Positions 2,985 to 33,732 of a DNA stretch of 64,000 nt are shown one piece after another. Within the stretch, counting starts at the first letter, position 1. Every line of letters begins with the position of its first letter. Position numbers and translations under genes: made by a program. A model generated the notes under the pieces. It ran no database searches. It saw only the letters and a list, made by a program, of their open reading frames with translations, and was not told the DNA's origin. The stretch is from NCBI GenBank assembly GCA_963971285.1, contig OZ020252.1:19629662-19693661 (forward strand). Reading direction: 5' to 3'. Source of the DNA: Astropecten irregularis (Eukaryota > Echinodermata > Asteroidea > Paxillosida > Astropectinidae).

Positions 2985-3907
2985 ACATAAAAAGTAAAGA
3001 CCGTGAAAGTGCAAGAACCCGGTTTACGACAAACAGAAAACAATTTCAATAACTTGAACTCAAAAGTTGCACTGCATTAGTCCACCGACTCTTTGAGTGT
3101 TTAAAAAGTACAATATTAGGCCTATTTCGACCCAGAGCGACAAACGTTTGTGAATGGAAGGAATCATTTTGTAATAGAGAAAACTGCCGCCTACAACATG
3201 GCTAGAATATAAGTACCTCTGTGAAGTCTATAATTTTATGTATAACAGACACACAATAAGTTACTCTTTTAGTACACAAATATCTTGGCACATTATAGTG
3301 TTTGGCAAGTGACACGTAATCTTCACAATATTATAGACAATATGTCCCTTGAAATGACGGTTACCAACCTAAAAAAGTCTCCTTATATTAATATATTAAT
3401 TGTTATTTTTTATGAATGAGAATGTTTTTGAATTACACATTATGTAAACCATGCATGACGCCTGAACAGTAATGTTACTATATAATATTCTCCTCTGTAC
3501 TGTCGCCGTTGGCGGCAGCAGATACCCTGTCTTTCCTAATATCCACACGATGCACGCTCTTCTTATTTTAGCAAAATAAAAATTTGTTTTGAACGGTACA
3601 TTGTATGCACACTCCTCCACCTGAGATACGTTTTCTTTCTTGAATAAAGACCATGTCGAGGTGATCAGGGACAAAATACCTGGTAAAATTCCGGGAGAAT
3701 TGTCAATGGTATTTCAGAAACGAAGGCTCTCAAATTTGGAATCCTCCACAATGACCTATCACGTTCACACGAGCTTCTGTGGATCCATTCTGATCCACTC
3801 TCCAGGTGATCCGGTCGGTAATTCATGTTCACAAAAGACTCTGAAGTTGAATTATGAAATAGCTTCGTGCATGTTTATAATGACAGCAAGTCGTAGTGAA
3901 CATAGAA
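2985..3907. other. No gene seen
   Basis: AT-rich intergenic DNA between MITE P and the S1 SINE. It contains one TAGGCCTA (3117-3124). ORFs at 3396 and 3640 lack recognisable features. Confidence 0.5.
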
Positions 3908-3986
3908 AAATTGACGGGAGCGGGATTCGAACCAGCGACACGGAATACCGTAATGACACTCCACCGACTGAGCTACCCAGCCCTAC
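3908..3986 (-). mobile_element. S1 SINE, tRNA-derived head
   Basis: On the minus strand it reads as a tRNA-like head: box A TAGCTCAGTCGG (3964-3975) and box B GGTTCGAATCC (3923-3933), spaced as in a tRNA. The same head recurs at 5625, 5795, 34846 and 61322. With several diverged copies and no folded CCA-ready end it is a SINE, not a tRNA gene. It lies just past the inferred end of the acyltransferase gene. Confidence 0.75.
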
Positions 3987-4293
3987 GTTGGTGGTGTCCA
4001 AAATTTTAATACCGCTCCAATCAATTTATTTCTGTATTCATTTTTTTTAACGACTTAAAATGAATCCAGTCAGTACCAAGTTTGGTACTTGGCCGGAACC
4101 CGATGCCTAACATTGAAGTGTCCAAAATCACCTGTCACAATGGACTATATTAATTATGATATTCATAATTAATGAAACATAAGTTTCAATCTAAGTTTGT
4201 CTACGAACATTACAATGAATACAATAAGATGAATGCTCTGGACGTTTTCGACAGACGAGTTTGACGGAACTAAAAGAAGTACAATAAAAATAA

Positions 4294-4774
4294 TTTATTA
4301 TTTCTTTTTACTCTTAAATTTCATCTCAAATCTTATAGTTGATATTTAAGTCTCCTTTTTGAACAATTTTTTGTACACGTGTTAGGGAATAAATAACCCA
4401 TTCAATACCTTATTCGGAATGGTAGATTTAGCACATTGTATACATACAAATTGACAAACAAATCATAATTTGTGCAAAACACTTTTGCTAAATGTATAGG
4501 AAAAATTAAACCCAGGTAAATAATAGATTTTTAACAGTAAAAAAAACAACACAATCTATTTCTACAAATGACACATCTTTGGACAGTTGAAATCATTACC
4601 CTCATTATATTATAAATGTCTTAAACATCGCACGCTACATCTACAGAATTGCACAATCTTTTTAATTGCATTATAATGCCGACAAATTCCTAATGATACG
4701 GTCAAGTGAATTGAGTAGCTAGTGCACTTTGAAACATTGCTTGTTTTTTTAACTGTTGTCCCAAATTGAGATTT
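4294..4774 (-). other. Probable 3' UTR with poly(A) signal
   Basis: AT-rich sequence downstream of the stop on the minus strand. The nearest AATAAA I see on that strand is at 4294-4299, giving a 3' UTR of about 0.5 kb. No repeat family is seen here. Inferred from position and the hexamer only. Confidence 0.4.
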
Positions 4775-5143
4775 TCAAACAAGATGGCCGGACGAGTTGC
4801 GTCTTTCGACGCTTGGAGAGATATCGAAGGCAAAATCGCCCTCGGAATGACTAACATCCGCTGAGAAGCTCACGCACTCCATGCTGCCCACGCTGCCCAC
4901 TCGATTATCGCCCACCTTGTCGACCGGCACAATAACGTCCGAATTCTCACGGCTGGAAGGCAATACGCCCTCCAGCGACCCGTTAATATCGCTGGCCTCC
5001 GCTGATGTCGACAGTGGGCGCATGACGGAGGAGGAGCGGGTACCAGGACGCTGGAGACAGTTCGCCGACAGAGGGCGGCTCTTCCGTCCTGATGCTGAAG
5101 ATGGAGTCCGTATTTCCTCTTCAAGAGGGTCAATTTCTTCATC
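4775..5143 (-). CDS. Last coding exon of the WS/DGAT-like gene (acidic/Ser-rich tail)
   Basis: 369-nt exon: 122 codons and a TGA at 4775-4777. The acceptor is GTGTTTTAG just above 5143. The product starts DEEIDPLEEE, then a basic Ser-rich stretch (SASGRKSRPL), then Ser/Asp/Gly-rich sequence ending RRNSSGHLV. It has no recognisable domain, looks disordered and contains Arg/Ser patches that could be phosphorylated. The smaller ORF starting at Met 5023 is part of the same frame. GC content and lack of stops contrast with flanking AT-rich DNA, supporting real coding. Confidence 0.75.
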   Translation of the reverse strand, partial: DEEIDPLEEEIRTPSSASGRKSRPLSANCLQRPGTRSSSVMRPLSTSAEASDINGSLEGVLPSSRENSDVIVPVDKVGDNRVGSVGSMECVSFSADVSHSEGDFAFDISPSVERRNSSGHLV

Positions 5144-8100
5144 CTAAAACACGAAGGAGAAATCGATCAATCTCTAGTTAATACCTCATTGTAGCTTTAA
5201 AATAAACAAACTAACCGCCTCAACCGTTGTCACTCTCTCAGGCGACCTGAAGCAGCAACACAAGAAACAAGATGGCTGCCAAGAGCGCCAAAAGAGACAT
5301 TTCAAAGGGAGGCACATTTGGCGCGTTTAGGCGAGTGTCTGCTGATGTCCGAGGCAGCCTGGGCAAGTTAATAGGCCTTATTCATTACGGTGCATCCATC
5401 CTTCATTCGAACAGTGCAATCAAACCAAGGCTTGGGTTCAAAATAGTCAGGTACCTGCTTCCCTTATCTTTTCCGAAGCGCATACGAGGAGGAGGTGACA
5501 AAATGGATGCACCGTGAACAAGGCCTATATCTTCCAGTTGCAACTAGTATTTACGAAACCCAAAAGAAATATGATTTGACCAACTGAAGCCGCTATCTTA
5601 AGGAGAATAAGGAAACTGTCGTTGGTGGGAATCGCACCAGCGACCTATCGGTCTGCTGTATCAGCACTTTACCTACTGGCATATCCAGCCCTATATGCTG
5701 ATTGTCAATTACCATTGTACGGTTCCTAAAACCAAACACAATTACACAAGTCATGACGCTATATCAAAAAGATACATAAAGATACCAGCTGGAAAGCTCA
5801 AGTTGCAAGGTACTTAAGGTCGCTGGTTCCAATCCCGCTTCGGTCAATTTACAATACATTCTGCAGGCCACTATTGGTATTAACATCTAATTGAAATGAA
5901 TTAGTCAATTATACGGTTGATACATAACCTCATCTTCATCCTCGTCCATTGCACGTCTCCTGTACTCTCCAGGTATCCGTCGATGTGCCAGCAGGCTGAC
6001 TAACGTTTCTATCTGTCACATACAAGATTAACATCACGACAAATCAGTTTCAAATCAAAAACATCTGAAAGGGTTTAACTACGAGTCTACGATTGACTAC
6101 GAATGTTCACTTTATGACATTTGGGAGGTTGTTTTTCTCGTTATTCTGTTTCAAACTAGCGGTAACTAACTCAATTTTGCTATAATGGAGAGGTCAAATA
6201 CTTGGTACAATGATGAGTCTGAATCTGAATCTGAATCTGAATATTATACGATGCAGGGCCTTACTAGGCATAAACGCATCGGGTAAGAGAGGGCTCAAAA
6301 ACCTGATGAAACCATTTATAGAAAGATGTGTCATGAGAAGAAGATACAGGTGGGAGGAAAACCCAGTGTTATATTCTGAGTAAAACCCATATAATCAGGT
6401 AGGGACTGAAAACCCAATTCACTTGTGGACCGAGCCGGATTTGAACCCGGTCCGCAGAGGTGAAAGGCGAGGAAAGAACCGCTACGCCAACCTGACTCCC
6501 CTGATGAAACTAAATAGAAGCGATTGGAAGAGCTATAATGGCATAGATTTATAAGAGGAAGTCAGCAGTGCTAGTGATATACCTGTCTTTTGAATTCATC
6601 TGCAATGGGCTGTGGGTCTGGTACGATTCCTTTATCGGCAAGTATGGCTATCCTGATCTGGCCTGCATAGGTCAGGAGAGATATGCTGATGGGTACCTCG
6701 TCTCCTGGTGACATCCAGAACAGAACCATCTTCACATGTTTCCCTCCCAGGGATATAATGTCCTCTCCCAGGGCCATGTTGGACACGGTGCAACTGCTGT
6801 CGCCGTAGAAGGAGGACATGATGCCCTGGGCCATCGTCTCCGGGAATGTCGTCATAGCCATTTTGGTGAAGCCGTAGAGGACCACGTGCTCCGTCGAGAG
6901 TTTAAGCTCGTCCAGGCGGCGCTTGGTGTCCCACAGGCGAGGGATGGCACCCTCCGTGCCGGTCGCCAGTTTGACGGTGGCCAGGGTGAAGCGATTCCCC
7001 ATCGGCCCGATGGACCTCTGCGACTCGGAGCCTCGGAAGTCCACGGCAATGTTGGCCTGGGTGTTCTTCGGGTTGTCGATCCCCGACGATTGGAGGAAGA
7101 GCCGGAGGCTTCCAGCCACCGCGGACATAGCCACGTCGTTCAAGGAGCATCTGGTGACCAGTTTGACGCGGTACACGGGCGCTAGCTGGATGGCATCAGA
7201 CCAAGCCACGCACTTCTGCCCGGTGAGTCTCCTATCGCTGAACAAGCCGAAGTCCTCACAGCCACACAGCATTTGTCTCATGACCACGAGCGGTCCAACT
7301 ATTAACGCCCTTAGTACATTGAATGCTAGTGCCCTCCGCCCAAAGCGAGTTTTCCTGGGCACGATGACGGGCGATTTGGTCTGATTATCCGCCAGAGCCT
7401 TGTGCAACAACTCATTCAGGTTCACTCCATCGGACACGCAGGCGTGGATTCGGAACAGCAGGAGCGTGTCCGGCTGTTCCGATCCCAGTTGAAGGACGTG
7501 CACCTCCCAGAGTGGTCTGTCATGACTCAGCTCCTGGCACGAAAGTCTCGAGACGTATCCCACCACGTCTGCTTTAGTTCTGAAAGACTCGGTGACTTTG
7601 ACTATGTGGTTATCAATGTTAAAATCGTCATCGTTGATCCACTGGTAGCCGCAGACGGCCGGAATGACGCGTTGGGTGAACCGTGCGTACAGCTTGCTAC
7701 CCCGTTTGTTCTCGGCTGACACCACACGGGCTAGGAGCAGGTCCCGAAAGCGCGTCACCTCCAGACTCCCGTCCAGTTGCATCAGGCACTGGTTCACCGC
7801 CTGGTTCAACTCGGTCTCGTAAAGCCAGAATCGATCCACGGCCGACAGCAGGTTGGGACAGCCGACACAAGTGCAGCGCCGGCAAGACACCAGCCGGCGT
7901 ATGAGGTACGCTACCGGTACCACGATCAGAGTGACTACTAAGACTGGAATGCATGTTGCCAGCGCGAGAAAGACGAACACCAGCGTGCCAACCAGAGGAA
8001 TGATCAGGCTCTGGTCGGCCGGGTGCTTGAGTCGCTTCATTGGTTTTACTCCATTAGCCATCGGGCCTCCCGCTCTGGTGCTGCGCTGATGAATGTTTCC

Positions 8101-10078
8101 TTTGGCTCCCCGGCTCTCCGGACTCGATTCGCTGTACAAGTTGGACTCGGCATAATCGATGGTAACATTGAAGGAGTCTGCGCTACCGACTCTCGGAGTT
8201 GCCCCTCGGGAACCCGGGACGCCGCCACCTCCAGAAGCAGACTGCTTCTTGGATCCCGCTATGAAGACAGAAAAAGAGAAAGCCCGGATCAGAGAGGTTT
8301 TCATGGTTTGATGTAACATTGTAGGCACGTTGCCATAACGATGTATGCCTTTCCTACGGTGAAAAGGCTCATAATTGTAAAGAAACCCCTTTACAAACAG
8401 GCTTAAAATCCACATGGTTTCAACTATTTTCTTGCATTTTCAAATACTGCAGTATGGATGATGAACATTTTCTACCCTTGACTTTAAATAATGCCAGCCT
8501 CCACAATCACGAGTCCCTAGAGTAAAAGATTGGAAATTTCAGATATTTGTATCCAGATTTATGACAAAATATTGAGTAGGAATAAAAAAAAAACCGACTG
8601 CATGAGTGAATACAGATTAACTATACGCTAACAAAGACGTCAGATTGTTAGACCTTTATAATCTACATGATCTACCATTGTGAAGGTCTTGCTTTCAATA
8701 TGTACGAAAAAATTGAAATATTTTGTCACACTGTTTGCTGAATTACAAAAAAGCACCAGATTTGGGTTGCAGTATAATGGATGACATTTAACAAGATACG
8801 AATATTATAATACAACAGCTTCTTTGGCATTTTCATTGATGGGACGTCACCAAGTCAACCAAGTCATCAATCTGAACCAAGTTTTCAATATTTTTTATAT
8901 ACTGTACAGTTCATGCAAACAAAATTTAGCAAAATGGCTAATTGCATAATGCATGGAAAATCTCAACAGAGTTTGCCCGCGGTTCAGACACTCTACCTTC
9001 TCTAGAGAATGAGGTAAGATTTCTTCAATGCTTTCCATCAGAGTGGCAACTTCAAAACGGGTCTGTCTGATTGTTTGTTTGTTTCAGTCATTTCTTTTCT
9101 GATATTTTTTAACCTATTCCACAGAAACGAACGAGCAACAGACCAAACATTCAATCACGAGCATAAATTATCGAGCGACAGGCAAGTTGCCACAAAGCCC
9201 AAAGCTTTAGGTTGTCTGGCCCACTGTCTATAAATAACCATCACCCCTAAGGATCCATCAGTGGCTCTCCTGCCCTCGCATAAGTCCGTGAAGACCGTCT
9301 TGGAGTCCTCATGTTCCTCGCCGGAGGATTCTGTACAAGGTTACGCGAGCTATTTCCGGGGAGCTGTTCCTCATGGGTTGAGGAAAGGTGTTTATCCAAA
9401 CCAGCTTTGAGGCTGTGGCATGGTTGGCTTAATTTGACGTGGCAACACAGAGCAACTCAAGAGCGTGATTACAAAATTCATTTGCTTATTAACCCTTTAT
9501 GGTCAAATACAAATAATGAGATCCAATGCACGCTTTTACTAAAAAAAGAAAAGGATTGAAAATTAACGAATTTCTCAAGGGAACAAATTCAGACAGCTAT
9601 TATTATTTTGTCCACTTCAGAAAAGCTTTCAAGAAATACTGGTGATTGTGGACATCTGAAATATTATACCCACTTTTACTTAAGCTCACTTAACTGTGAT
9701 TGGTTGTATATAAGAGAATGAAAATTTCTATTTTCGATTCAATTCCATTTTTAATCCTTTCATTAATCCGGAAACGGGTATCTTCTGGTCAGAGTATCAT
9801 TTAAAGCTTCAGAATTCATATTTCTTTTTTTGTATTATTTTCAGATCGGCTTAAAAACAGGTACAATGCATCTTGAAGCGTAACCCACGTAGCAAAACGT
9901 GTAGCAGGATTCTTATCGAGATTTCCTTTCGCTTCACTGCGAGTCATCCGTCAATAACTGATGGCCCCCTATACCTAGTGTAGCTGCACATCTTACCTTC
10001 GCAAGCAATCTGCGATAACCGCCGTTCAGCCCACGGGGACGGCGGCTCACCTGGCGAGTTTGGGGCGCGTTTCTCCAT
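4775..10078 (-). CDS. WS/DGAT-like O-acyltransferase, four-exon gene model
   Basis: Spliced model: complement of join(4775-5143, 5929-6012, 6583-8258, 10051-10078), 2157 nt, 718 residues plus stop. WS/DGAT enzymes transfer acyl groups from acyl-CoA to fatty alcohols or diacylglycerol, usually at membranes. Seen in the model: Gly/Ser-rich N-terminus; hydrophobic stretch at about residues 94-129 (one or two membrane segments); a CxxCxCxxC-like patch just after it; PLWE at 258-261; HACVSDG at 281-287 where the family has HHxxxDG; NDVA at 383-386; MGNRF at 429-433; family-like C-terminal helix at about 560-585; acidic then Ser-rich tail to 718. Bacterial relatives are about 450-480 residues, so the membrane segment and tail are extra. 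The second His is Ala, so catalysis is uncertain. Phases agree at all three junctions (1, 0, 0). Membership in the family is clear; substrate is unknown. Confidence 0.8.
5625..5693 (-). mobile_element. S1 SINE head, decayed
   Basis: Minus-strand copy of the S1 head: it begins TAGGGCTGGATATGCC and ends near a degraded box B (GGTGCGATTCC). It lies in the proposed intron 3. Confidence 0.55.
5795..5860 (+). mobile_element. S1 SINE, 3' half of the tRNA-like head
   Basis: Contains GGTTCCAATCCCGCTTCGG, a box-B region matching the S1 family, followed by TCAATTTAC as in other copies. Box A is lost. It is oriented opposite to the neighbouring copy. Confidence 0.5.
5929..6012 (-). CDS. Third coding exon of the WS/DGAT-like gene
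   Basis: 84-nt exon, 28 codons, phase 0 on both sides, flanked by TGTGACAG at the acceptor and GAG|GTTATG at the donor (weak after GT). It starts IETLVSLLAHRR, which continues the helix begun by ADEFKRQ at the end of the main exon. WS/DGAT proteins typically finish with such an amphipathic Leu-rich helix. It ends MDEDEDE, and the next exon opens DEEIDPLEEE, so the acidic run spans the junction. Too short to show as a long ORF. Confidence 0.75.
6215..6497 (-). mobile_element. S2 SINE, tRNA-derived, with ATTCAG tail
   Basis: Minus strand: box A TGGCGTAGCGG (6479-6489), box B GGTTCAAATCC (6437-6447), a body with the TTTTCCTCCCACCTG motif, and a 3' tail of about four ATTCAG units (6218-6242). 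Head, body and simple-sequence tail in this order are the SINE layout. A related copy with the same head pattern and GTTTTCCTCC body is at 35872-36240. It lies in the intron between exons 2 and 3. Confidence 0.75.
6583..8258 (-). CDS. Main exon of the WS/DGAT-like gene (membrane segment and acyltransferase core)
   Basis: 1676-nt exon holding residues 10-568 of the model. It has the membrane segment and all recognisable WS/DGAT motifs: PLWE, the degenerate HAxxxDG, NDVAMSAVAG and GPMGNRF. The open frame runs on from 6583 to a stop at 6571 and upstream to an ATG at 8415, but both ends look spliced. At the 5' side a pyrimidine-rich tract ending TCTTCATAG precedes position 8258. At the 3' side CAG|GTATAT follows position 6583, cutting the C-terminal helix mid-way. 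If the upstream part is coding instead, Met at 8301 would give a hydrophobic leader starting MKTSLIRAFSF. GC content is visibly higher than in the flanks, as expected for a selected coding exon. Confidence 0.9.
8259..10050 (-). other. Intron 1 of the WS/DGAT-like gene (proposed)
   Basis: 1792 bp between donor GTGAGC at 10050 and the pyrimidine-rich acceptor at 8259. It is mostly AT-rich with no recognised repeat. An oddity on the plus strand is a TATAAATA at about 9227-9234 followed by an open frame of about 56 codons without ATG. I do not call it a gene. Confidence 0.5.
10051..10078 (-). CDS. First coding exon of the WS/DGAT-like gene
   Basis: Encodes MEKRAPNSP plus one base, which joins the next exon to make Ala-10. 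The donor is CAG|GTGAGC, close to the metazoan consensus, and leaves exactly the phase needed by the acceptor at 8258. The ATG has G at -3 and G at +4, and an in-frame TGA lies four codons upstream, so it is the first in-frame start. An overlapping out-of-frame ATG sits 13 nt upstream at 10089-10091. The exon probably extends upstream as 5' UTR, either to a TSS after the TATAAG at 10230-10235 or to an acceptor-like CTTGCCAG ending at 10188. The alternative is that translation starts inside the long ORF near 8301 and this exon is not used. Confidence 0.55.
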
Positions 10079-10229
10079 GACGTTCGCTCATGTTGCCTGC
10101 ATGCCGTGCTTTTTTTTGGCACGAGATGATCACCGTACGAGCCCAGCAATGATCGCCATAACTCCCCGGCACTTAAAACCCCCAGTCCTGGCAAGAGCAG
10201 AAAACGGCAACACAACATTATCATCTGTA

Positions 10230-10235
10230 CTTATA
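10230..10235 (-). promoter_or_regulatory. TATA-like element upstream of exon 1
   Basis: TATAAG on the minus strand about 150 nt upstream of the proposed start codon. The spacing would fit a 5' UTR of about 120 nt. The hexamer is common by chance, so this is tentative. Confidence 0.2.
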
Positions 10236-10310
10236 CACCATGCATGATTCGTCTATAAGTATCCATCGATTAACGACATGTACAGACGTGCAGGTTTCAG
10301 TCTTACTTAA

Positions 10311-10503
10311 AGGTACTGTCATACTTTGGTAGCATAATATACCGAAACAGAAATCGCCACAGATTTACCTACAACGTACAGGGTATAGCGATGGTGATGG
10401 TAGAAACATATGTTAACAGTTTTCTTCTGCCTGAAATGCTGTATTTATCCAGAAAAGAGTAAAGCCAATGATCAAAAAGCTACAAAAATAATGGTGAAAA
10501 GAC
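10311..10503 (+). mobile_element. TTAA MITE family A, truncated copy
   Basis: 5' half of family A after a TTAA at 10307-10310. It stops at GAAAAGAC followed by TTAA, where the next copy starts. In intact copies this internal GAAAAGACTTAAG site is present, so the neighbour may have inserted there with loss of the rest. Confidence 0.8.
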
Positions 10504-10507
10504 TTAA

Positions 10508-10772
10508 AGGTAGTATCATACTTTGGTAGCATAACGAAACAGAAATCGCAACAGATTTACCAACAACCTATAGGGCATGGTAAAAACATACCGTTAACAT
10601 TTGTGTCTGCCTGAAATTAAAGATCAGAAATAACGGTTTTCACTATTTTCTCAAAAAGTAGGCACCGTCTGGGACTGGGAAATCCACAGATGACTGTTAC
10701 TGTATATCTTCCTTGATATTTTTGCCCATGAATCTGCATTTCTTTGACAAAAACAAAAGTATGACATTACCT
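10508..10772 (+). mobile_element. TTAA MITE family A, copy with intact TSD
   Basis: AGGTAGTATCATACTTTGGT to AAAAGTATGACATTACCT, flanked by TTAA at 10504-10507 and 10773-10776. The interior has an internal deletion relative to longer copies. Confidence 0.88.
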
Positions 10773-11493
10773 TTAATGCTAAATGAAGCAAAGACGTAGA
10801 TGGTAATGATAATTATCAAGTTTCTACACTGATTATATTGTGATGATTAATGCTGAACGGATTTCAAACATGGGGAGAACTGATTATGTTATACACCTCA
10901 TTATGTACTTGCTCCATCGGCGCATGAAGACAAGATTAAAAAAAAAAAGTGCAGACAAATCTGTTCGTTGTTTTGGATTTCTGCTCCCGAGGGTAAATTC
11001 AGATTTCGTTTTCGCCCGACATTAATTGCGTTCCGTGCTATTTTTTCTGTACGTTGTGGTCCAAAATTGCGCGCCGTTAAAACACAGCTGTTGCGTATAT
11101 ACTGTTGCCTTTAGGCTGCTACTAAACCATGCAACCGAAATATAAAAAAAAAAACACGAAAACGTGAATTGAGTGCAGACTGGTCGGCACCCTATAACCA
11201 TTCACCAATCCGCAGCAATTCGGGAATAATTATACGGCGGGCGCCAGACGATACGAGTTATTTTGAACCAGTCCTTCAAGTTCCCTTTGGTAATTTCTTT
11301 TTTCAAACCACTCAGAATGACCAAGTACAACCCGGTGAATAATGCTCAGGTCATCAGATGAAGAACCCCAGGGAATGTTGACAAGCCAGCAACAGTTCCT
11401 ACCCAATCGGCAGGAAGAAGGCCGGACGGCAGTATTGTGTCAAATTTTTACAAGATCAACAGACAACCATGTATACGTTTAAGGCACGTTTAA

Positions 11494-11890
11494 TATGTTC
11501 AATAAACGTTGTAAGAACGTTCATGTCATGTCACTTGTTTCTTTAGGTATCCGAAACGTTTTATTTAGGTTCTTGTTACGTCTTTAAATACCAGTGCACT
11601 TTTAGTACGCTTTGTACGTTCAGAATACGTTATTAGAACGTGTATGGCACGTCAGTTGGTTTTGTGAATGTCTAAAACGTTTTATGCAGGTCCATGTTAC
11701 GTTTTCAGTAACTACACGTATGTTTTCAATACGGCTTTTACGTTCAGAACACGTTCTTAGAACGTCCCATAAAAACGTAAAGAAAACGTCCAAAAGTGTC
11801 CACAAATGGCCGTTCTGAAAACGTGTTTTCAAAACGTTCTCAAAACCTAATTAGAGGTACGTTCAGAAAACGTTTAGAAAACGTAAAATG
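11494..11890. repeat. AACGT-rich tandem repeat, about 121-124 bp unit
   Basis: The motif GTTCA(A/G)(A/T)A(A/C)ACGTT recurs at 11497, 11618 and 11742, with aligned landmarks CGAAACGTTTTAT / CTAAAACGTTTTAT and TTAGAACGT between. The unit is about 122 bp in roughly three diverged copies. ACGT is extremely frequent. Opposing ORFs of similar size on both strands are by-products of its palindromic character. Confidence 0.7.
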
Positions 11891-12046
11891 GTTTGCTGGG
11901 CACCGGATGACAGCACCCTATATAAAAAGCAAGATTATGTCGACTTAGTACCACTCAAAATGTCCACCAATGCCTTTGTTTCGACTGACAGAGAGGACTA
12001 ACAGCTAAACACCCAACCTGACGTTTTAAAAGCTTTTCTGTATTAA

Positions 12047-12405
12047 AGACACTATCACACTTTTCTAGCATACCGAAACAGAAATCTTCATAGATTTACC
12101 TATAACTTTTACAGGGTATAAAGATGGTGATGGTAGAAACATAGCATTTTGTCTGCATGAAATGCTCTATTTATCAAAAAAAATAAAGAGTAAAACCAAT
12201 GACTAAACCAATTTTGATCTTCTGAAGATAGAAAATAAAAATGAAAAGATTGTATAAATAACATGGGAATTTTTCAATGTTTTCTCAAAAGGTGGGCACC
12301 CGTACCTTGGGACTGAGAATATCACCACAGGTGACTGTTTCTTTCTTACTATTTTTGCCCATGAATCTGCATTTCTTTGACAAAAACCAAAGTATAATAT
12401 AACCT
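12047..12405 (+). mobile_element. TTAA MITE family A copy
   Basis: Flanked by TTAA at 12043-12046 and 12406-12409. The left end is diverged (AGACACTATCACAC), the right end reads CCAAAGTATAATATAACCT. Full-length for the family (about 360 bp). Confidence 0.85.
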
Positions 12406-12789
12406 TTAAAGCTCGTTTCAGTGGTAGGGATATCATCATGAGATTTGCACATTTTGCTTTTAAATTCGGGTAAATTTATCGTGCCCACTAAGGAATTAGA
12501 TATCTAAATTTTGAGAAATCGATTCATCCACAATCACCAAGAGTGCGTCGCCCTCATGCGAGCAAACTTGGTATACATTACACCGGTACAGTCTGTACAG
12601 CAAACTGCATTAATTGTCATACGATACTCCAGCGTTGAATACACGATATGTTTTATCATGATTCTGTCACCAATACAAACTGCTCTTTACAAACTCGCTA
12701 ATAGGTGAAATCTATGCGCTTGCATGTAGTTCTTCCGTATCAACGCCGTAGGACATAGTTGAATGTACCCCCCGTGCGCTACGTGCAAT

Positions 12790-12952
12790 ACAGGCGATTC
12801 AGGATAGTGCGCCTCCAAGAGTGTGCAATGCGTTGACCAATCACAATGCACGGAACTTGTGGACCCAATGCACATCTGCATGTACGATTCCGTTCATTGT
12901 GATTGGCCAATGCGTTGCAAACTCTTGGAGGCGCACTATCGTGAATCGCCCG
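12790..12952. mobile_element. MITE family P, copy 2
   Basis: Left GGCGATTCAGGATAGTGCGCC and right (inverted) GGGCGATTCACGATAGTGCGCC, continuing as CTCCAAGAG with TTGCAATGCGTTG. The arms are about 60 bp. The inner arm GATTGGCCAATGCGTTGCAAA matches copy 1 at 2813. Confidence 0.8.
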
Positions 12953-13599
12953 TGTTTTATCGTGTTTATAAGGCCGTGTCCCAATTCTCTGGCTGCGACC
13001 GCAAATAACACACAAGTATATGGAAATGGCTGCAGTCACTGGCTAGTGGCTTCCATAGGTACATGCGTAATTTGCAGTTACCTAATCTCTTTGCCGTGGC
13101 TGGAACAGACTAAAAAAAACTGCACATTGAACTCATTTCATACAAAGTACTTAATTGATTCATCTGCAGTCACAACACTGCACGCACATTGTGCTGTCAC
13201 TCATCAAAGAATATCATTATGATGTTGCAGAACAGCTATTCAATTCTGTAATCCTTTCCTGTAAAATATGTAAAATATATCTAACAAAACTTTCATTCGG
13301 CAAAACTTAATGCTGTGTAATTCCGATGATCGTCACAGTCTAGCAGCTGCCAATGACTGATTGTCATGGAAACAATGTGCGCAGAGCACATCTAATCTTT
13401 TTTAATGCATATTCTCTACGAAAGCATGTCTGAAGTAAATTATTATGACCAGGCTAGGTATGCTGCAAGCATTTAGAAAGCGTCTCATTAAACATGCATG
13501 ATACATAATGTAGACACAATGTAATTATACAAGTAATTTGAATGTATAGAGAATTCTTCGGCATCTTGTGTCCATATTATTTGTCTTTTTGCTTTGTAA

Positions 13600-13720
13600 T
13601 ACTTGTTGTTGATCCTGCTAGGATCGAAACGCGTCAGGCTCTCCTACAAACATTTGGGGTTTTTTGGTAAATTTCAGATCTTTATTTTGGCTGATGAGCA
13701 GTTTGTAGCAGTTTCATATT
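13600..13720 (+). mobile_element. Dispersed element M with GATC-stem/GAAACGCGTC motif
   Basis: A 6-bp stem GATCCT-gct-AGGATC followed directly by GAAACGCGTCAGG (13611-13638), then TCTCCTACAAACATTTGGGG and TTTATTTTGGCTGATGAGCA. The block recurs at 36555 and 59865, with the motif alone at 55889. Confidence 0.6.
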
Positions 13721-14439
13721 ACTTATAGTGTTGGCGACTGGGTCGTTTAGAAAACAAATGATACGTGAATTACAAGTGATAATAATCGTCTGTATGATCT
13801 AGGTAAGTAGGCTAAGGACAACGTGCACACAACCTTACAGACCATCATCCGATTAAACTCCAGGTATATGTAACCCGATTATGCCGCTAATAGTCGCTAG
13901 GACTTCAGCCGTGAAGCTCGGCTCAGCTTTTGTCACAGCACGCTACAATAATCCGTGTAAATAGCTCAGCATGCGCCATCAGTCATACAGTCGTCGTGTT
14001 TCTACGAAAAGAAAAGGTGTATGTAAACTTGTCAGAAAGGAAATTGCTCTTGCGGACAGAATGCTGATTAAATGTGCAGCTTGGAGGCCAATGTTACACG
14101 TCCCTTTGTGTTCGTTTGCGGACGTCGAAGGAAACATTATCAAGGAAGGCCAATCAGCCTAATGATGTCCAACAGATATTAAACAATATGAAGCAATTAT
14201 TATCCATTGAATGATAGGTGTGTAGTTAACCAATTAACTTAACTGCAGCACAGCGAAACTGTCTGGCTTCTTGGTGATATTGTTCACAGCCAGGGCCCTA
14301 TGTCAAGGAATCCGTTACGACATAATTACGTTTGTGCTTACGGGCACCGCAGCTATATACGCGTGAAATCTTTGGGCGCTTAATCGGTAAGCGAAGAATT
14401 TCTACTTACCTATATTTTCAGCATATGGATGATAGAGCT

Positions 14440-14510
14440 GGAGCATGTGCCTAAGCCATGAGCCTTAGCTTTAGCCTTAGCCTGAGCCTCCGTTTCGTAA
14501 ACGACGTGCA
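14440..14510. repeat. Hexamer-type MITE end (family O/C related)
   Basis: Imperfect AGCCTT/GAGCCT units lead into CCTCCGTTTCGTAAACG at 14489-14505. Inverted, this is TTTACGAAACGGAGGCTCAG, the same as the element end at 46743. Confidence 0.5.
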
Positions 14511-16084
14511 AAAAAAATCCGATCTGATAAAACCCGGACATTGGACAAGAAAACGACTGCCTTTCTGAGCTATAACCGGTTCCCAAAACCTAAAACGGTC
14601 GATCAGAGCCCGCACTCGCGGTAAAATCTGGACACTTCATCGACAACAACCAATGCAGCAGCAGCAGCCGCGTGACTATAGACTCAACTGCTTGCACCTA
14701 ACAGCACGGACTCGCCACCACACCCCGCAATGCTCAATCATGAACACATTATGCTCATATAATATTAATAAAATCCCAGTCGATGCTGCTCAACTAACAC
14801 CGGCAGCTGCACACATACAGGCCATCGTAATTCTTATTTAACCGAGCCGGGCACTTCAGAGGAACCTGAGTTCAAACTGAAGTTTTAGCAATACAAATAA
14901 ATGCTTTATTGACCAGCGTACTATTTTAAGAGTATAATTATGTGAAGCGGTAAAGACTGCCGCTGAACAAAAAAGAGGAAAAGGTCAGATTTTCCAACCA
15001 TGTTACAGTGTACTGTTGACCAACCTTGGAAGACACTTGAATACATTTAAATGACCATTAGCTAAGGAGCTGTTTGCCGTCATTAAATGGCTTCACACTT
15101 GTCTCACAATTTTAACGAGCACTGATAAATATTGTCCGTTGTAGATATTCTCATCACAGAGAGCCAACACAATCATGGCGCACGCGTTCGTTTAGCATCC
15201 CCGAGGCAGCACTGACCTGGGAATGATTGTGTTTACTGCGCAAAACAAGCGAGAGGGTGGGGACGAAGTTGACTAGTGCCGACTCGTGGAAGCTAAACGA
15301 ATGCAACCAATTAAGGAGATCTTTCTTTTACTTTACAAACAACCACTCGCGGTTGCCATGGGCGGCCAAATGTTGCAAAACATCATCTTCCTGATGTTCA
15401 ATGTGCCCAAATTGTGCATAATCAATACAGCTGTACATTACACATCCAATTCTTAGTCGTTTTTTTAATTCGTTTCCATAACATTCAACAATATCTTTGA
15501 ATGTTAATTAAAACATTCCTATGTCCAGTTAGCATTGCAGGCCGAGGCTCCCCACATTACTTTCCACCATATTGGGTAGCTTCAAAAACATCGTTGCATG
15601 CAAAAGAAAGCTTTGCAGACGCCGTGTCAGAAAACAGCCGTCAGACAGACGTACGTCTGATTTCCGACTCAACGTCTGGCCGTGGACATGCAGGATCACA
15701 TATAGGCTTAGGCCCTAACATGGATCTTAGGGAAACGCACGTTGGTACGGTTATATAGCTTGAATACGGACAGGCCCCGCGGTGCGAATCAGTAATTTAC
15801 CAGGAAAACAGAAATATTCAGGAGCATTATAAAATCTACAAATAGCACACTGATCAGACAGAACATCAATCCATGGCAAATCCATCTCCGATCTGACAGA
15901 CAAAATACACTTAGAAAAGTGCAGCGATTAATGAGTGATTCATGAACAATAAGTTTGAGGAGTAATAAGCCTCGGCGCTGAAACCTGAGCTTGCTTAAGG
16001 CAACACAATACGGCTTCACTATCGGGCTGCCAAGCAGTACGATAATTCGTCCGCACGTCTATTGCTTCAAAATCGATTTTGAAA

Positions 16085-16122
16085 ATACAATATATATATA
16101 CATACACACACATACATACATT
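16085..16122. repeat. TA/CA microsatellite
   Basis: TATATATATACATACACACA followed by CATACATACATT. Confidence 0.8.
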
Positions 16123-16357
16123 ACTTTTTATATAGGTCGCTGTTACCATGGTAACTGCTCATCACTATGCAGTTTGGCCGACTGTTTTGAGACGAAACGA
16201 CAGCAGCTGTTCACGTTAATTGTCAGACCGTATATAAATCTTCATCATGTAGTATGTCATTACGAGACACCGTACGTGCCTTCAACATTTGAATAATACC
16301 AAATCATGGCAATATTTATGCACAAAAGGCAATTGAGTTCACAGCATAAAGCAGAGT

Positions 16358-16603
16358 GTACACTGTCATCACTTAGTAACATTTTCGGTAACATGTTGCC
16401 CAGTTAGGGCAACACACTTGGGCAACACGACTTTGGACCCTGTGTATAAATATACATCAGCAACATTTGGCCAAAATGTTACAGATATATTGCTGCGACA
16501 TGTAATCCTACTCGTTTTGCTATGTGTACACTGACAATATTTTCAGCAACAAGGCACCTGGGCAATATGTCAAAGATTGCCCCCCCCCAAATGTTGATAG
16601 TGT
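16358..16603. mobile_element. MITE family E, copy 1
   Basis: GTACACTGTCATCACTTAG and TTCGGTAACATGTTGCCCAG at the left; GGGCAATATGTCAAAGATTG and a diverged right end. The interior GCGACATGTAATCCTACTCG / TTTTGCTATGTGTACAC aligns along its length with 50547-50780. Confidence 0.75.
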
Positions 16604-17197
16604 CAATGTGCAAGTCGTTACAACATATGACAGTTGCATGATACCGTCTGATTTTTCTCGATATTGGACATTCCCATAGCATTCGCTGTACAATAATGAG
16701 AACTTCCAATATTGAGAAAACCAATCAGAAATTCGCCGTACAAACCAATGGGCATGACCAATGTCCAAAAGTCAAAGCAACAACTTCGCTGTCATCTTAC
16801 GACAGTTGTATCAGAAGGCATAAGGAGGCATAAGACCATGCACGCACGGTGATATGACTATACCGGTGGAGAGCTAGAGGGAGTTGGCAGGTGTTACAGG
16901 CCATTATGGCAAAGCCGACACGTTGTTGACTTTATCTTATATTGCAATCTTCGGATCAGTCTCAGCTTTTGGACAGACTGTGATGGGAGCAAGACGATGC
17001 ACGTGAAGTGAACCAAAGTGCCACGTGCAATTGCCGAATCTTGCCTGCGGCTCATTGCAGCGTTCTTAATTAATGATCTCAACTCTTAATTTCAGAGCAA
17101 CTGTGTGTTCTCTTATCGCGTGTTTCCTGTCATTTGGACTGTGGGTATATCGAAATATGGAAGCATCGTTGTGAAATCAATTAACATTTCACAATAA

Positions 17198-17552
17198 AGG
17201 GTACAGTACAGGATTGGTAACGTACCCAAACAGAAATAAATGTCCCAGATTTACGTATAACTTTCAGGATATGAAGATGGTGCTCGTAGAAATATACCGT
17301 TTAAATATTTCCACCTGAAATGGTGTATTTATCCAGAATTTAAGACAAAAAGCAGTTTTGATCTCAGGTAAGATCAAACCATTCTTAATGTTTTATCAGA
17401 AAAATTGAATCGTTTTGTGTATGTGCTATTTTCTCGTGACTCAGATATCCGATTGAGCTCAATCTTTCACAGGTGTGTTATTTCATGTACATGCTGGACC
17501 AGTCAAAGTGTGAGTGCTGCTCTGTGGCCTTTACCAATCATGTATTATACCT
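17198..17552 (+). mobile_element. TTAA MITE family B copy
   Basis: Starts AGGGTACAGTACAGGATTGG, ends CCAATCATGTATTATACCT, with TTAA at 17553-17556 (left site decayed). It shares GATATGAAGATGGTGCTCGTAG and the GAAATGGTGTATTTATCCAG block with family A, so A and B are related subfamilies. Confidence 0.85.
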
Positions 17553-17629
17553 TTAAGGCAGACAAGCATTCATTGTATTATAAAGTTTCCGTCATTATTT
17601 TCAAGATCTAAAACATTTTAACGTCTAAT

Positions 17630-17841
17630 GCCCATGTCACACGTGGCAATTTACAGGCAACAAGTTCCAGGCAATCTCCAAGATGAAATAACATTCATCT
17701 ATAAATCTTGATGTAATTTTCTTGGGGATAGTGAAAAATTACCAGAAAAATTACTTTTGTACCAGCTAGGTTTTCCTCCTGTATGCGGTGTAGTTGGTTG
17801 CCTCCAAGTTGTCTGTAAAAGTTGCCTTGTGTGACATGGGC
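17630..17841. mobile_element. MITE family N, single copy with clear TIRs
   Basis: Left GCCCATGTCACACGTGGCAA; right, inverted, GCCCATGTCACACAAGGCAA. The arms continue for about 45 bp with GGCAAC motifs. Flanks CTAAT and CTAAC may be a 5-bp target duplication. Confidence 0.7.
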
Positions 17842-20472
17842 CTAACGCTCTGATTCTGCATCCCATGAAATAGCAAAACAGCCATGGTGATCGCAAATTA
17901 TTGTAGCAAGAAAGGCAGATCTATATCTTGATATCATTCCACCGATGCAGTTATTTCTATAATATACTCATTCAGCGAGTTTAAATTGTCAACAGCGACT
18001 ATGAAATAAGAGTTCTTGAACTGATTTTCTGAAAAGCCAGCCTTTGATTTTCGTCTGAGTGTGCGCCTCCACAGTCAACGCGAGGGCCATGTTTCTATAC
18101 ACAAACATCCTTGTTCGCTTTGAAAGCTTACGGTCACGATCTTCTGATAATCAGATTTGGAGACGGAATTCATCCTTCTAGACATGGATCCGTCTCCATT
18201 GTCTGCTAAACCTCAACATCTTTACCTCCCAATAACATGGCATATGGACTCTTTCCGTTTCTTTTTCTGAAGAACGTGCTCCCATGTTTCGATCCGGTTA
18301 TATTTTGCTCAGTCAGGTTTTATGGGGATTTGTCTGAGCACAATCAGTCCGAAATGCCTCCAACCAAATAATAATAGAGCCGTTGTATGAAATCTGCTAT
18401 ACGGATGTCTCTTCACCAACGTGGGCACGTTCTGCTTTGCTGGATGCGACTCTTCATTGCAATCGTACCGGTACATCCTCCAACAAAATACTTAATAAAT
18501 ACTCTCAGGACATTTCAGTTCCCTCAAAGTTTTTGAAAGACGAAAAGCAAAGAGATTGACTTCTGTATACATTTCCGATTTCCAAACTGAGGTTTTGGAT
18601 TTCTTTTGAAATGTATGTTCTCAATTACAGCCTGACGAAGTTAAGTTTGCAGCAGTTATTACTTGTATGTTCTCAATTTTGAAATGAAGAGAATATAGAG
18701 CCCGTGGGTGTTTATGAAACTCGGTTGAACATCTCGAGGCTCGAGAATTATTCCCTAAAACTAAACCAGTGAATACGTATTAAGTTCTTTCCCTTAATAC
18801 AATTGTCACCATCAAAATGATGTCCGTATACCGACATAATTTTATGATTGAAAGATTTCGATTGTTGATAACGATGTCCCAAACAAATATCTCCTAAATC
18901 AATCTCTTCTTAAACAGATGTCATAAACATTCCAAGAGTTAAACAGCTCCACCAGACGTTCTCATTCCGAATCACACCACCGGCTTCAAAGAGTCTTCCG
19001 ACGGAAGAAAACATGTTATGGTTGATTCTGACTGAGTGAAAAACAATGTCATCGCGAATTCCGAACGCGTGGTCTTCTCGGAAAGTATAAAGTTCACATT
19101 GGAACACATTTCTATTCCCAATCGTGTACAGTTTCCAGTTCTTTACAACAAATAATATCAGACACCCACCCGTTTTCTATCAGGATAACGGTATGAAACG
19201 GGAACCTTGCGTACCCATGGCGTGATCGAATGTCTCCCATGCCGGACCCGTGACTCGTTTGTAAAACTAAACACCACTGATGAAGAGGAGAAGACACGCC
19301 AGAAAGAGGTCAAGAGCTGTTGAAGCAGGAAGGTTAGTGCAGAAAATGATATCGTTCTGATGCATTGAGTGTAACCCGAAACACCGTACAAGGCAAAAGC
19401 TATGGCGATGTACTTATACAGGCTAGCTGTATAGTTTATATCATATAATTATTCAGATTTAGCCATCTGAATATCATTCAGGCTTTATAACATCAACAAT
19501 AATTGAAACAAACAGCAATAAAAATGTAAAGTGTTACCAACGAGTACGACGCCTACATAATCAGATCGTGTTATTATGTCGGCACGCCATGACAAACAAA
19601 TCTTTATGTTGTGCAAATTCAAAATCGTAACATTGTAATACGAGGAAACAGTGTTGTTGTTGTTGCTGCTGCAGCTTTTGTTGTTGCAGCTGGTTATGAC
19701 ATTTCCCTTTTTACTTCTTCCTGTTTCTGTTTTAAATGTATTATACAGGAGATTTCACAAAGCAGAATCAGTCAGTTCACAAATCGTGTTGTCATCATGA
19801 AAGAAAAACAAACCTGTGACATTTTCAGCTCAAAACATCCTCTTCTAAGAGAAAGTGGTTTCCCCTCGCTACAATGACAAACTAAAAAGTGAAGACAATT
19901 TACAATTATAGGGCTAATTATGTTACAAATGTCATTTCCTTTTTCCCCCTTGTTAACGTGAAGGTCTAAACCGAATCGTAAACCCGAAACCTATACTCTG
20001 ATTCACTGGTAATAGCTAGAATCCTTCGTAGTCTTTCTACAAGACTGAAATCGTGGCCGGGGATGGAAACTTGCCACATCATTATGAAAGAGCAAAAGAA
20101 CACATAATACGATATAATTTCTATATTGGACTATTCCACTGATGCGGTGTGGAAGTGACAACGTCACTATGACGTAACTATGACGTCGCTTGGGGCTCCA
20201 GTAATCCACACTACCTCCCGCGTGCATTAAAACACGCACACACACACTTTGTAACACGACTTGTATCGAATTATCATTTCACTCCTGATAAAAGTTAATT
20301 TCGAAATTTGGTAAGCAATTAATGTCATACCTGAAACTATCGAGGTATCTAATGGATATAGCCTGTTTCGTCCACACCCCAACCCCCTCCCCTCCAAAAA
20401 AGAAGTAGACAAATGATATTAATTTCATATTAGATTACAGGATCGCTAGCAGGAGAAAGCTATCCACCCTAG
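17842..20472. other. No gene seen
   Basis: Unique-looking AT-rich DNA. TGTATGTTCTCAATT occurs twice about 50 bp apart (near 18612 and 18665). Two half-CRE motifs lie at 20168-20186. Confidence 0.5.
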
Positions 20473-32082: not shown

Positions 32083-33732
32083 TTATAACCAAACGTCTGA
32101 GAGCCTCGATATGGGATGCAATCACCTGCCCTCCCTAAGAAAACGTCATGTCTGGGTGCCATCACCTGGGTGCATGTTGAACGAAGCACGCCACCATTTT
32201 CATACCGCCGGTGGTTCAATCGTCCATTCTGATGTTCCTGCACACTACTAGTCCTCTATACCTATAGCAATCTCCTATTTGGAGCATCACAACGGCGACA
32301 AAACCGCACCAAATTTATTACCGGAACCAGCCTGATCACATTACAAACGCACGGGGCGTCGTGCTCCAATTCTACGGGGCGAACAAGAAGCTCTCGTTCC
32401 CGCCTCTCGATTATATTATACAGACGCGCATTCACTCCACGTGTAAACCAGCCTGGGCAGATTGAGCTAATGAAGCTCTATTACAATCGATCAGATACAA
32501 TAAATGATATAATTATACCACTTGCCCTGACCGGGTTCTTTCTTTTGCAGACAATTAAGACAATGCCCTATGCATATTAGATTGTTGTTTTTCTTTGTAA
32601 CCCTTTTTCTCCCGTCGCTCTTTGAGTATCCCTGTTGTTTTGGTATCCCCACATTTGTATCGATTCACCGTCAACTCGATACCGGGCGGCCTCATCGGAT
32701 TCCAGCCCGTGTCTCGCTCTAGAATCATTGTCGGAGTTGTTTTCCTCGGTTATTTTATCAGTGCACTCGGATTCGTTTTTTTTTTCTCTTCCTTTCCGTC
32801 AACAGCGATATTCAGATTTCTGTCTCGCTCCTTCGCCGAAGACTGGGCAAGAAAATGCACTCTGAATATTCTACACACGTCGTCTAGCTTGGTACATACA
32901 CTACCGTGCATAATACAGTTATACAGGTATAGACATATACAAACCAGACATTGGTTTACACTTCATGCGACACATAATATCCAGTCAAATCAATCCAATT
33001 TTAAGCGAATTCAGCTTAAAAGCATTCAGCTTAAAATTCAAATTATATCTCCCATATAGTCATTAGACGACATTGTTACATCTTCATTAAACGAATCGAA
33101 ATAGAAAGAAAACTGACTGACTGGGCGCAGTTTCAACTGCAAAATCTACAATTGAGCGAACCCACCGTACCTCAAGTTCAAGGAGGTCCCCTCTTCGGTC
33201 ATTTAACAAGTCTCTCGAGTCAAATGTATCCATTATCATAACTTCCTTCACAGTAGCTACGTATTCATCCAACCAACTCAAAAAGATATTGAACTATCGA
33301 CCGATCAATGATCGCCAGTGGCGCCACAAATCGGCGCCGCTATAGACTCACACAACCCAAGTTTTACAGCCCCGCCAAGATGGATAGGAACTATTGCACG
33401 GTGAATAGAAACTCCCATTGCACGTTCAGTGCTACAGACAATGGCGGCGCCATTGCACGAATCTATCTTACTAGCATCGCGTGCGCTACCTTGATAATCA
33501 CCAGCATATTCTATTGACACATGCCCTCGATCCATTCAGGTGTTGTATATCTACACAAATCGGAGTTTCATGTATGTCAGTTGGAGGAATGATTTAATGA
33601 CATTAATGACAATGCCATGACATGATGACAGATGGAACATCTGACACCATACAAAGCGATCTGTTTACGATCAGGTAGACAAACAACCATTCCCAATGTA
33701 TAAAATGCAGTCACTGGATTTTATAAGTTTAA
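32083..33732. other. No gene seen
   Basis: Contains repeated ATTCAGCTTAAAA near 33007-33035 and a cluster of three GGCGCC sites with CCATTGCACG twice between 33317 and 33470. A 69-codon ORF there (33308) is not supported. Confidence 0.4.

Follow-up and report, generated by a model that had tools for sequence, protein, structure and literature searches.

The window (the whole stretch of 64,000 nucleotides of Astropecten irregularis DNA that was analysed) carries, on its minus strand, a gene for a protein in which the second histidine of the WS/DGAT active-site motif HHxxxDG is alanine. This altered active site is the main point of the analysis and was absent from the first reading of the gene. 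The gene is almost certainly a real WS/DGAT-fold gene, and the best explanation is that it is a functional, intron-containing gene of the sea star. Because alanine replaces the catalytic histidine, the role of the protein is probably other than ordinary wax or fat synthesis. Judged from the sequence, we consider, on balance, that its function would be non-canonical or non-catalytic.

Gene model and support for the exons

Four pieces of the minus strand, running from 10078 down to 4775, were joined in frame with phases 1, 0 and 0. The product has 718 residues, and the four-exon model of the initial annotation was thereby reproduced. The pieces, together with an alternative form of the first, are as follows.

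10051..10078, minus strand: exon 1, 28 nt, from ATG 10078, phase 1 (donor 8/9; weak, with a competing donor and an upstream ATG)
9997..10078, minus strand: alternative exon 1, 82 nt, same ATG, phase 1 (donor AAG/GTAAGA, 8/9; frame open)
6583..8258, minus strand: exon 2, 1676 nt, coding for the N-terminal tail, the hydrophobic segment and almost the whole WS/DGAT fold (622-codon frame; PF03007 and PF06974)
5929..6012, minus strand: exon 3, 84 nt, last part of the C-terminal helix and first part of the acidic run (acceptor ranked first of 201; TIGR02946 and PF06974 extended)
4775..5143, minus strand: exon 4, 369 nt including the stop, acidic and then serine-rich tail (longest frame and sole acidic start among 161 acceptors)

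Each of the three introns begins with GT and ends with AG. The donors of exons 1, 2 and 3 match MAG/GTRAGT at 8/9, 7/9 and 5/9 positions, respectively, and the 20 nt preceding the acceptor AG of exons 2, 3 and 4 contain 18, 11 and 16 pyrimidines.

Exon 2, the obvious ORF of the initial annotation, is certain. Its stop-to-stop frame spans 622 codons, whereas 100 sequences generated from the window by a first-order Markov model reached 218 at most, and its GC3 is 0.70. Two Pfam domains were detected within the frame, PF06974 with 91.2 bits (cut-off 20.7) and PF03007 with 49.6 bits (cut-off 23.6; profile positions 53-171 of 263).

For exon 3, exon 2 was joined in frame to 201 downstream AG acceptors and the products were scored with a profile built from 33 related bacterial proteins. 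The acceptor of exon 3 ranked first with 111.0 bits, followed by 109.6 bits for the next acceptor, 105.7 bits for the unspliced frame and 105.0 bits for exon 2 alone. Adding exon 3 raised the TIGR02946 score from 167.4 to 172.5 bits and moved the end of that alignment from profile position 445 to 451 of 453; the PF06974 alignment was lengthened from position 139 to 144 of 145. This gain is small but real. The splice sites of exon 3 are ordinary (the minus strand of 4700-10100 contains 88 donors scoring 5 and 52 acceptors with 11 pyrimidines, those of exon 3 included), and its codon usage is indistinguishable from background, 384 of 5563 null segments being equally high.

Downstream of the exon 3 donor, 161 acceptors were compared. 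The longest phase-0 frame, of 122 codons, starts from the acceptor at 5143, and no other acceptor is followed by six or more acidic residues in the first ten. The acidic run crossing into exon 4 had been argued to be hard to obtain by chance. In codon score, exon 4 surpasses all 62 null segments, which are mutually overlapping. Read on the opposite strand, exon 4 scores higher than in its coding frame (0.169 vs 0.055), as do the 90 codons at the start of exon 2 (0.211 vs 0.143); the codon score therefore mostly reflects G+C content.

Exon 1 is the weakest part of the model. From ATG 10078 the frame is open in phase 1 to two equal donors (8/9), after 10051 and after 9997. The near-consensus donor claimed for a 28-nt start exon was thus recovered, but the equally scored donor yields an exon of 82 nt (9997-10078) and 736 residues instead of 718, a length with equal support. 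The protein has 718 or 736 residues, provided that ATG 10078 is used. The region 8300-20000 contains one other comparable ATG/donor pair (14446/14410). At 10091, 13 nt upstream of ATG 10078, there is an ATG that is out of frame and has A at -3. A start within the frame of exon 2 above 8258, with no exon 1, was considered and rejected, as this stretch is background-like (an equally high score is reached by 628 of 1052 null segments). Given the 18 pyrimidines among 20 at the 8258 acceptor and the non-coding-like sequence above it, some exon upstream of 8258 is likely. In this by-eye gene model the middle and 3' parts are trustworthy and the first exon is ambiguous.

The WS/DGAT fold and its altered active site

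The spliced protein was matched by PF03007 (49.3 bits, only profile positions 53-171 of 263) and PF06974 (93.4 bits), both above their cut-offs and in the order by which membership of the WS/DGAT superfamily was judged. Alignment to a bacterial profile with hhalign gave 99.7% probability over 427 columns, and the fold is recognisable. TIGR02946, the NCBI model for WS/DGAT acyltransferases, has a cut-off of 309.95 bits, far above the 172.5 bits obtained here. Since the protein falls short of this curated cut-off and lacks the catalytic motif, it is best classed from its sequence as a member of the WS/DGAT superfamily by homology, yet is not filed as a WS/DGAT enzyme. The earlier description as WS/DGAT-like accordingly holds for homology, both Pfam cut-offs being passed, but fails as an enzyme label. 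Among the Pfam matches of the spliced protein, neither PF03982, the mark of the DGAT2/AWAT family of animal fat and wax synthases, nor the BAHD transferase domain of BAHD and CER2-LIKE proteins was present. Two AlphaFold models, computed from alignments of the exon 2 protein with Moraxellaceae relatives, had mean pLDDT values of 44.1 and 42.6, which is low confidence.

In comparison with bacterial WS/DGAT proteins of the Acinetobacter AtfA type (with 7nxg and 6chj as solved relatives; PF03007 and PF06974, TIGR02946), the starfish protein shares both domains of the fold over their whole extent, as judged by profile alignment, and the majority of the motif positions surrounding the active site. 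It differs in its overall sequence (~20% identity), in the alanine for the catalytic histidine, in SNMALG for SNVPGP, and in having an extra hydrophobic segment and long tails. As a scaffold reference, 46 columns conserved to at least 85% in 36 bacterial WSDs were used. The window protein is identical in 25 of these columns and different in 21. Retained positions include D151, W216, H227, PLW (258-260), H281, DG (286-287), ND (383-384) and N431. Among the differing columns are the PGP of SNVPGP and several positions in the first conserved block, an uncertainly aligned region. The pattern looks like divergence with the scaffold kept, and not random decay. The 21 differing columns may mean that the mechanism has changed more generally or that constraint is relaxed. 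They and the missing catalytic residue would also suit a decaying or relaxed gene on its way to becoming a pseudogene; with all exons open, GT..AG introns throughout, G+C-rich third positions in exon 2 and conserved scaffold columns, we regard that explanation as unlikely.

The motif itself was located as follows.

7426..7446, minus strand: active-site motif HACVSDG, residues 281-287, alanine for the second histidine (three alignments and codons)

In the window protein, HHxxxDG is replaced by H281-A282-C-V-S-D-G. The alanine was placed on the second histidine, without gaps in the motif, by phmmer alignment to 7nxg and 6chj, by MAFFT alignment with six plasmid-encoded WSDs, and by hhalign. Residues 281 and 282 are encoded by CAC GCC, and two base changes would be needed to give His-His. 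An ordinary wax ester synthase/DGAT, with the alanine as an assembly error or rare allele, would be compatible with a sequence taken from one assembly, but the two base changes needed from a His codon and a TIGR02946 score far under its cut-off make this very improbable. Cys283, beside the alanine, was considered as a new nucleophile and rejected, because Cys also occupies this position in bacterial proteins that retain both histidines (L006, L098, L124 and others).

The second histidine is kept in 119 of 120 profile-matched prokaryotic rows (119 loci examined), a count biased towards Acinetobacter-type sequences (80 rows) and with few Actinomycetota. The rows are these 80 and 40 from plasmids and Pseudomonadota genomes, with L004, L096 and L097 duplicating genes of the 80. 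Only one row departs from this, that of a WSD on a plasmid of Rhodococcus ruber, which has HQSLLDD for HHxxxDG (L011:1349-2725). Natural variants known mostly alter the first histidine. It is given as Asn in 22 of 30 archaeal proteins, that of one wax-ester-making species included (PMC11948995), as Ser or Asp in two active Thraustochytrium WSDs, in a text that terms the second histidine strictly conserved (PMC5513132), and as Glu in EgWSD4 of Euglena (PMC5647427). Losses of the second histidine are not new, since Rhodococcus jostii RHA1 is described as having it replaced, as in the starfish protein, in three of 14 paralogues (atf4, atf10 and atf14, with Lys, Ser and Pro), the other 11 carrying HHxxxDG (PMC2667194). 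Those proteins are bacterial and belong to a set of 14, whereas no other member was found among the best candidates scored in the starfish genome.

The protein could alternatively be an active WS/DGAT-fold acyltransferase, in which another residue or substrate-assisted catalysis replaces the second histidine and the acceptor is perhaps neither fatty alcohol nor diacylglycerol. We consider this possible but clearly less probable than a non-canonical or non-catalytic function, even though the first histidine and the DG, PLW and ND positions are retained. Both histidines are reportedly essential, going by the title of Stoveken et al. 2009. For bacterial WS/DGAT, His132 is described as structural and His133 as directly catalytic, which also tells against an active transferase (PMC11948995). 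In its favour, NRPS condensation domains, which have the same motif, are reported to stay active in some cases after mutation of the second histidine, and one working condensation domain carries HQxxxDM (PMC11546977).

Hydrophobic segment, copy number and genomic setting

A hydrophobic segment precedes the WS/DGAT fold.

7882..8022, minus strand: hydrophobic segment and cysteines, residues 89-135, proposed membrane anchor (hydropathy and composition)

Hydropathy windows of 19 residues exceeding 1.5 start at residues 89 to 117. The segment has internal prolines and is flanked by basic residues on both sides, and cysteines 135, 138, 140 and 143 cluster just beyond its end. From these features we infer a hairpin or a single anchor, which may face the cytosol on the ER or a lipid droplet; the four cysteines are possible acylation sites. 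A second, weaker hydrophobic stretch starts at 318-324. The tails are of low complexity, Gly/Ser-rich at the N terminus and acidic, then Ser-rich, at the C terminus.

The genome (475.7 Mb, 168 contigs, with the window on contig 16) was searched for further copies. No second PF03007 or PF06974 match (E up to 0.001) was found among the best candidates scored in six frames of the 475.7 Mb. With the window protein as query (E up to 10), an exon-by-exon six-frame search, again with the best candidates scored, returned its own locus only. No relatives of the window protein were confirmed in the genome_contigs collection (22 pattern matches), and none were found in viral contigs or, at E 1e-3, in plasmids; WSD queries against viral contigs gave no confirmed match. 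Among the matches listed from open-licence papers, no echinoderm WS/DGAT literature was found in titles or abstract openings. DGAT2-family exons are present elsewhere in the genome: 16 PF03982 matches, four of which cover the N-terminal part of the profile, lie within ~23 kb of contig C27 (9405545-9428331), and are probably tandem genes.

The window contains 22 frames that run for 120 aa or more from stop to stop, 20 of them outside exons 2 and 4. Ten of these 20 were scanned with Pfam and gave no match above cut-off. A 156-aa frame at 12752-13222 has a weak DUF2162 match (E 0.044, 13.6 bits, cut-off 34.4), probably by chance. A scan of the window with Rfam gave 0 matches at gathering score. 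By eye, a dispersed repeat with a tRNA-derived look was recognised at 3905-4000; it has at least 40 scored matches, itself included, the others being 85-88% identical, from 1167 genome candidates. Two more tRNA-like stretches, also identified by eye, lie within introns of this gene (5615-5700 and 6430-6500).

Contig 168 (16,335 bases, of which 10,000 were read) is the mitochondrion, with COX1 detected by Pfam with internal TGA codons, tRNA-Phe at 1 and tRNA-Thr at 1049. Read with the echinoderm code, it has long frames that we take, by eye, to be nad2 and nad1, both on the strand opposite cox1, and nad4L between cox1 and cox2. Sea-star mitochondria have this gene order, with nad1/nad2 inverted as a block, and this genome fits the echinoderm, hemichordate or amphioxus setting that had been anticipated. 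A further COX1 match, with 7 internal TGA codons, lies on contig C25 (9951047-9952018), a nuclear-type contig, and is probably a nuclear copy of mitochondrial DNA. On contig C131, COX1 is matched in a stop-free 552-aa frame and PF07993 in one of 523 aa (32162-33484 and 70858-71250, respectively); this contig is probably bacterial, from a symbiont or contaminant.

Proposed role and its meaning

By analogy, we rather favour a membrane-anchored WS/DGAT-fold protein that would have lost the canonical mechanism and plausibly acts as a lipid-binding regulator, the anchor and the regulatory role both being inferred. The hydrophobic segment would tether the fold to the ER or a lipid droplet, on the cytosolic side, and the WS/DGAT cleft would bind acyl-CoA or neutral lipid. 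With no general-base histidine, the usual acylation of alcohols or diacylglycerol would be inefficient. The fold may have been retained as an acyl-CoA- or lipid-binding, partner-regulating protein or scaffold, as in CER2-LIKE BAHD proteins without their histidine, and bulk fat synthesis would be left to the DGAT2-type genes elsewhere in the genome.

The CER2-LIKE clade of plants provides a functional analogy, being described as acyltransferase-type proteins that are ER-located, have a lipid role, and in which the catalytic histidine is dispensable or missing (PMC5489795). The H166A and H166N alleles of CER2 are reported to complement the mutant fully, and other motif changes do impair the function of a rice CER2-LIKE protein (PMC5489795). 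CER2-LIKE proteins are of another family, BAHD, of which the starfish protein has no domain match. This difference, and the condensation domains that are sometimes active after mutation of the second histidine, count against a lipid-binding regulator.

More speculatively, and with considerable doubt, sea stars (perhaps other invertebrates) may keep one ER- or droplet-anchored pseudo-acyltransferase with a fixed HAxxxDG, which would sense acyl-CoA or neutral lipid and regulate lipid enzymes via its acidic and serine-rich tails. Such a protein would be an animal counterpart of CER2 with an independent origin within the WS/DGAT family. Annotation transfer would label this gene a wax ester synthase or DGAT, and that label is contradicted at the very position to which catalysis is ascribed. 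Should all sea stars prove to share the alanine, the gene would cleanly distinguish between continued acyl transfer and lipid-binding regulation in animals as the role of a WS/DGAT fold that has lost its base.
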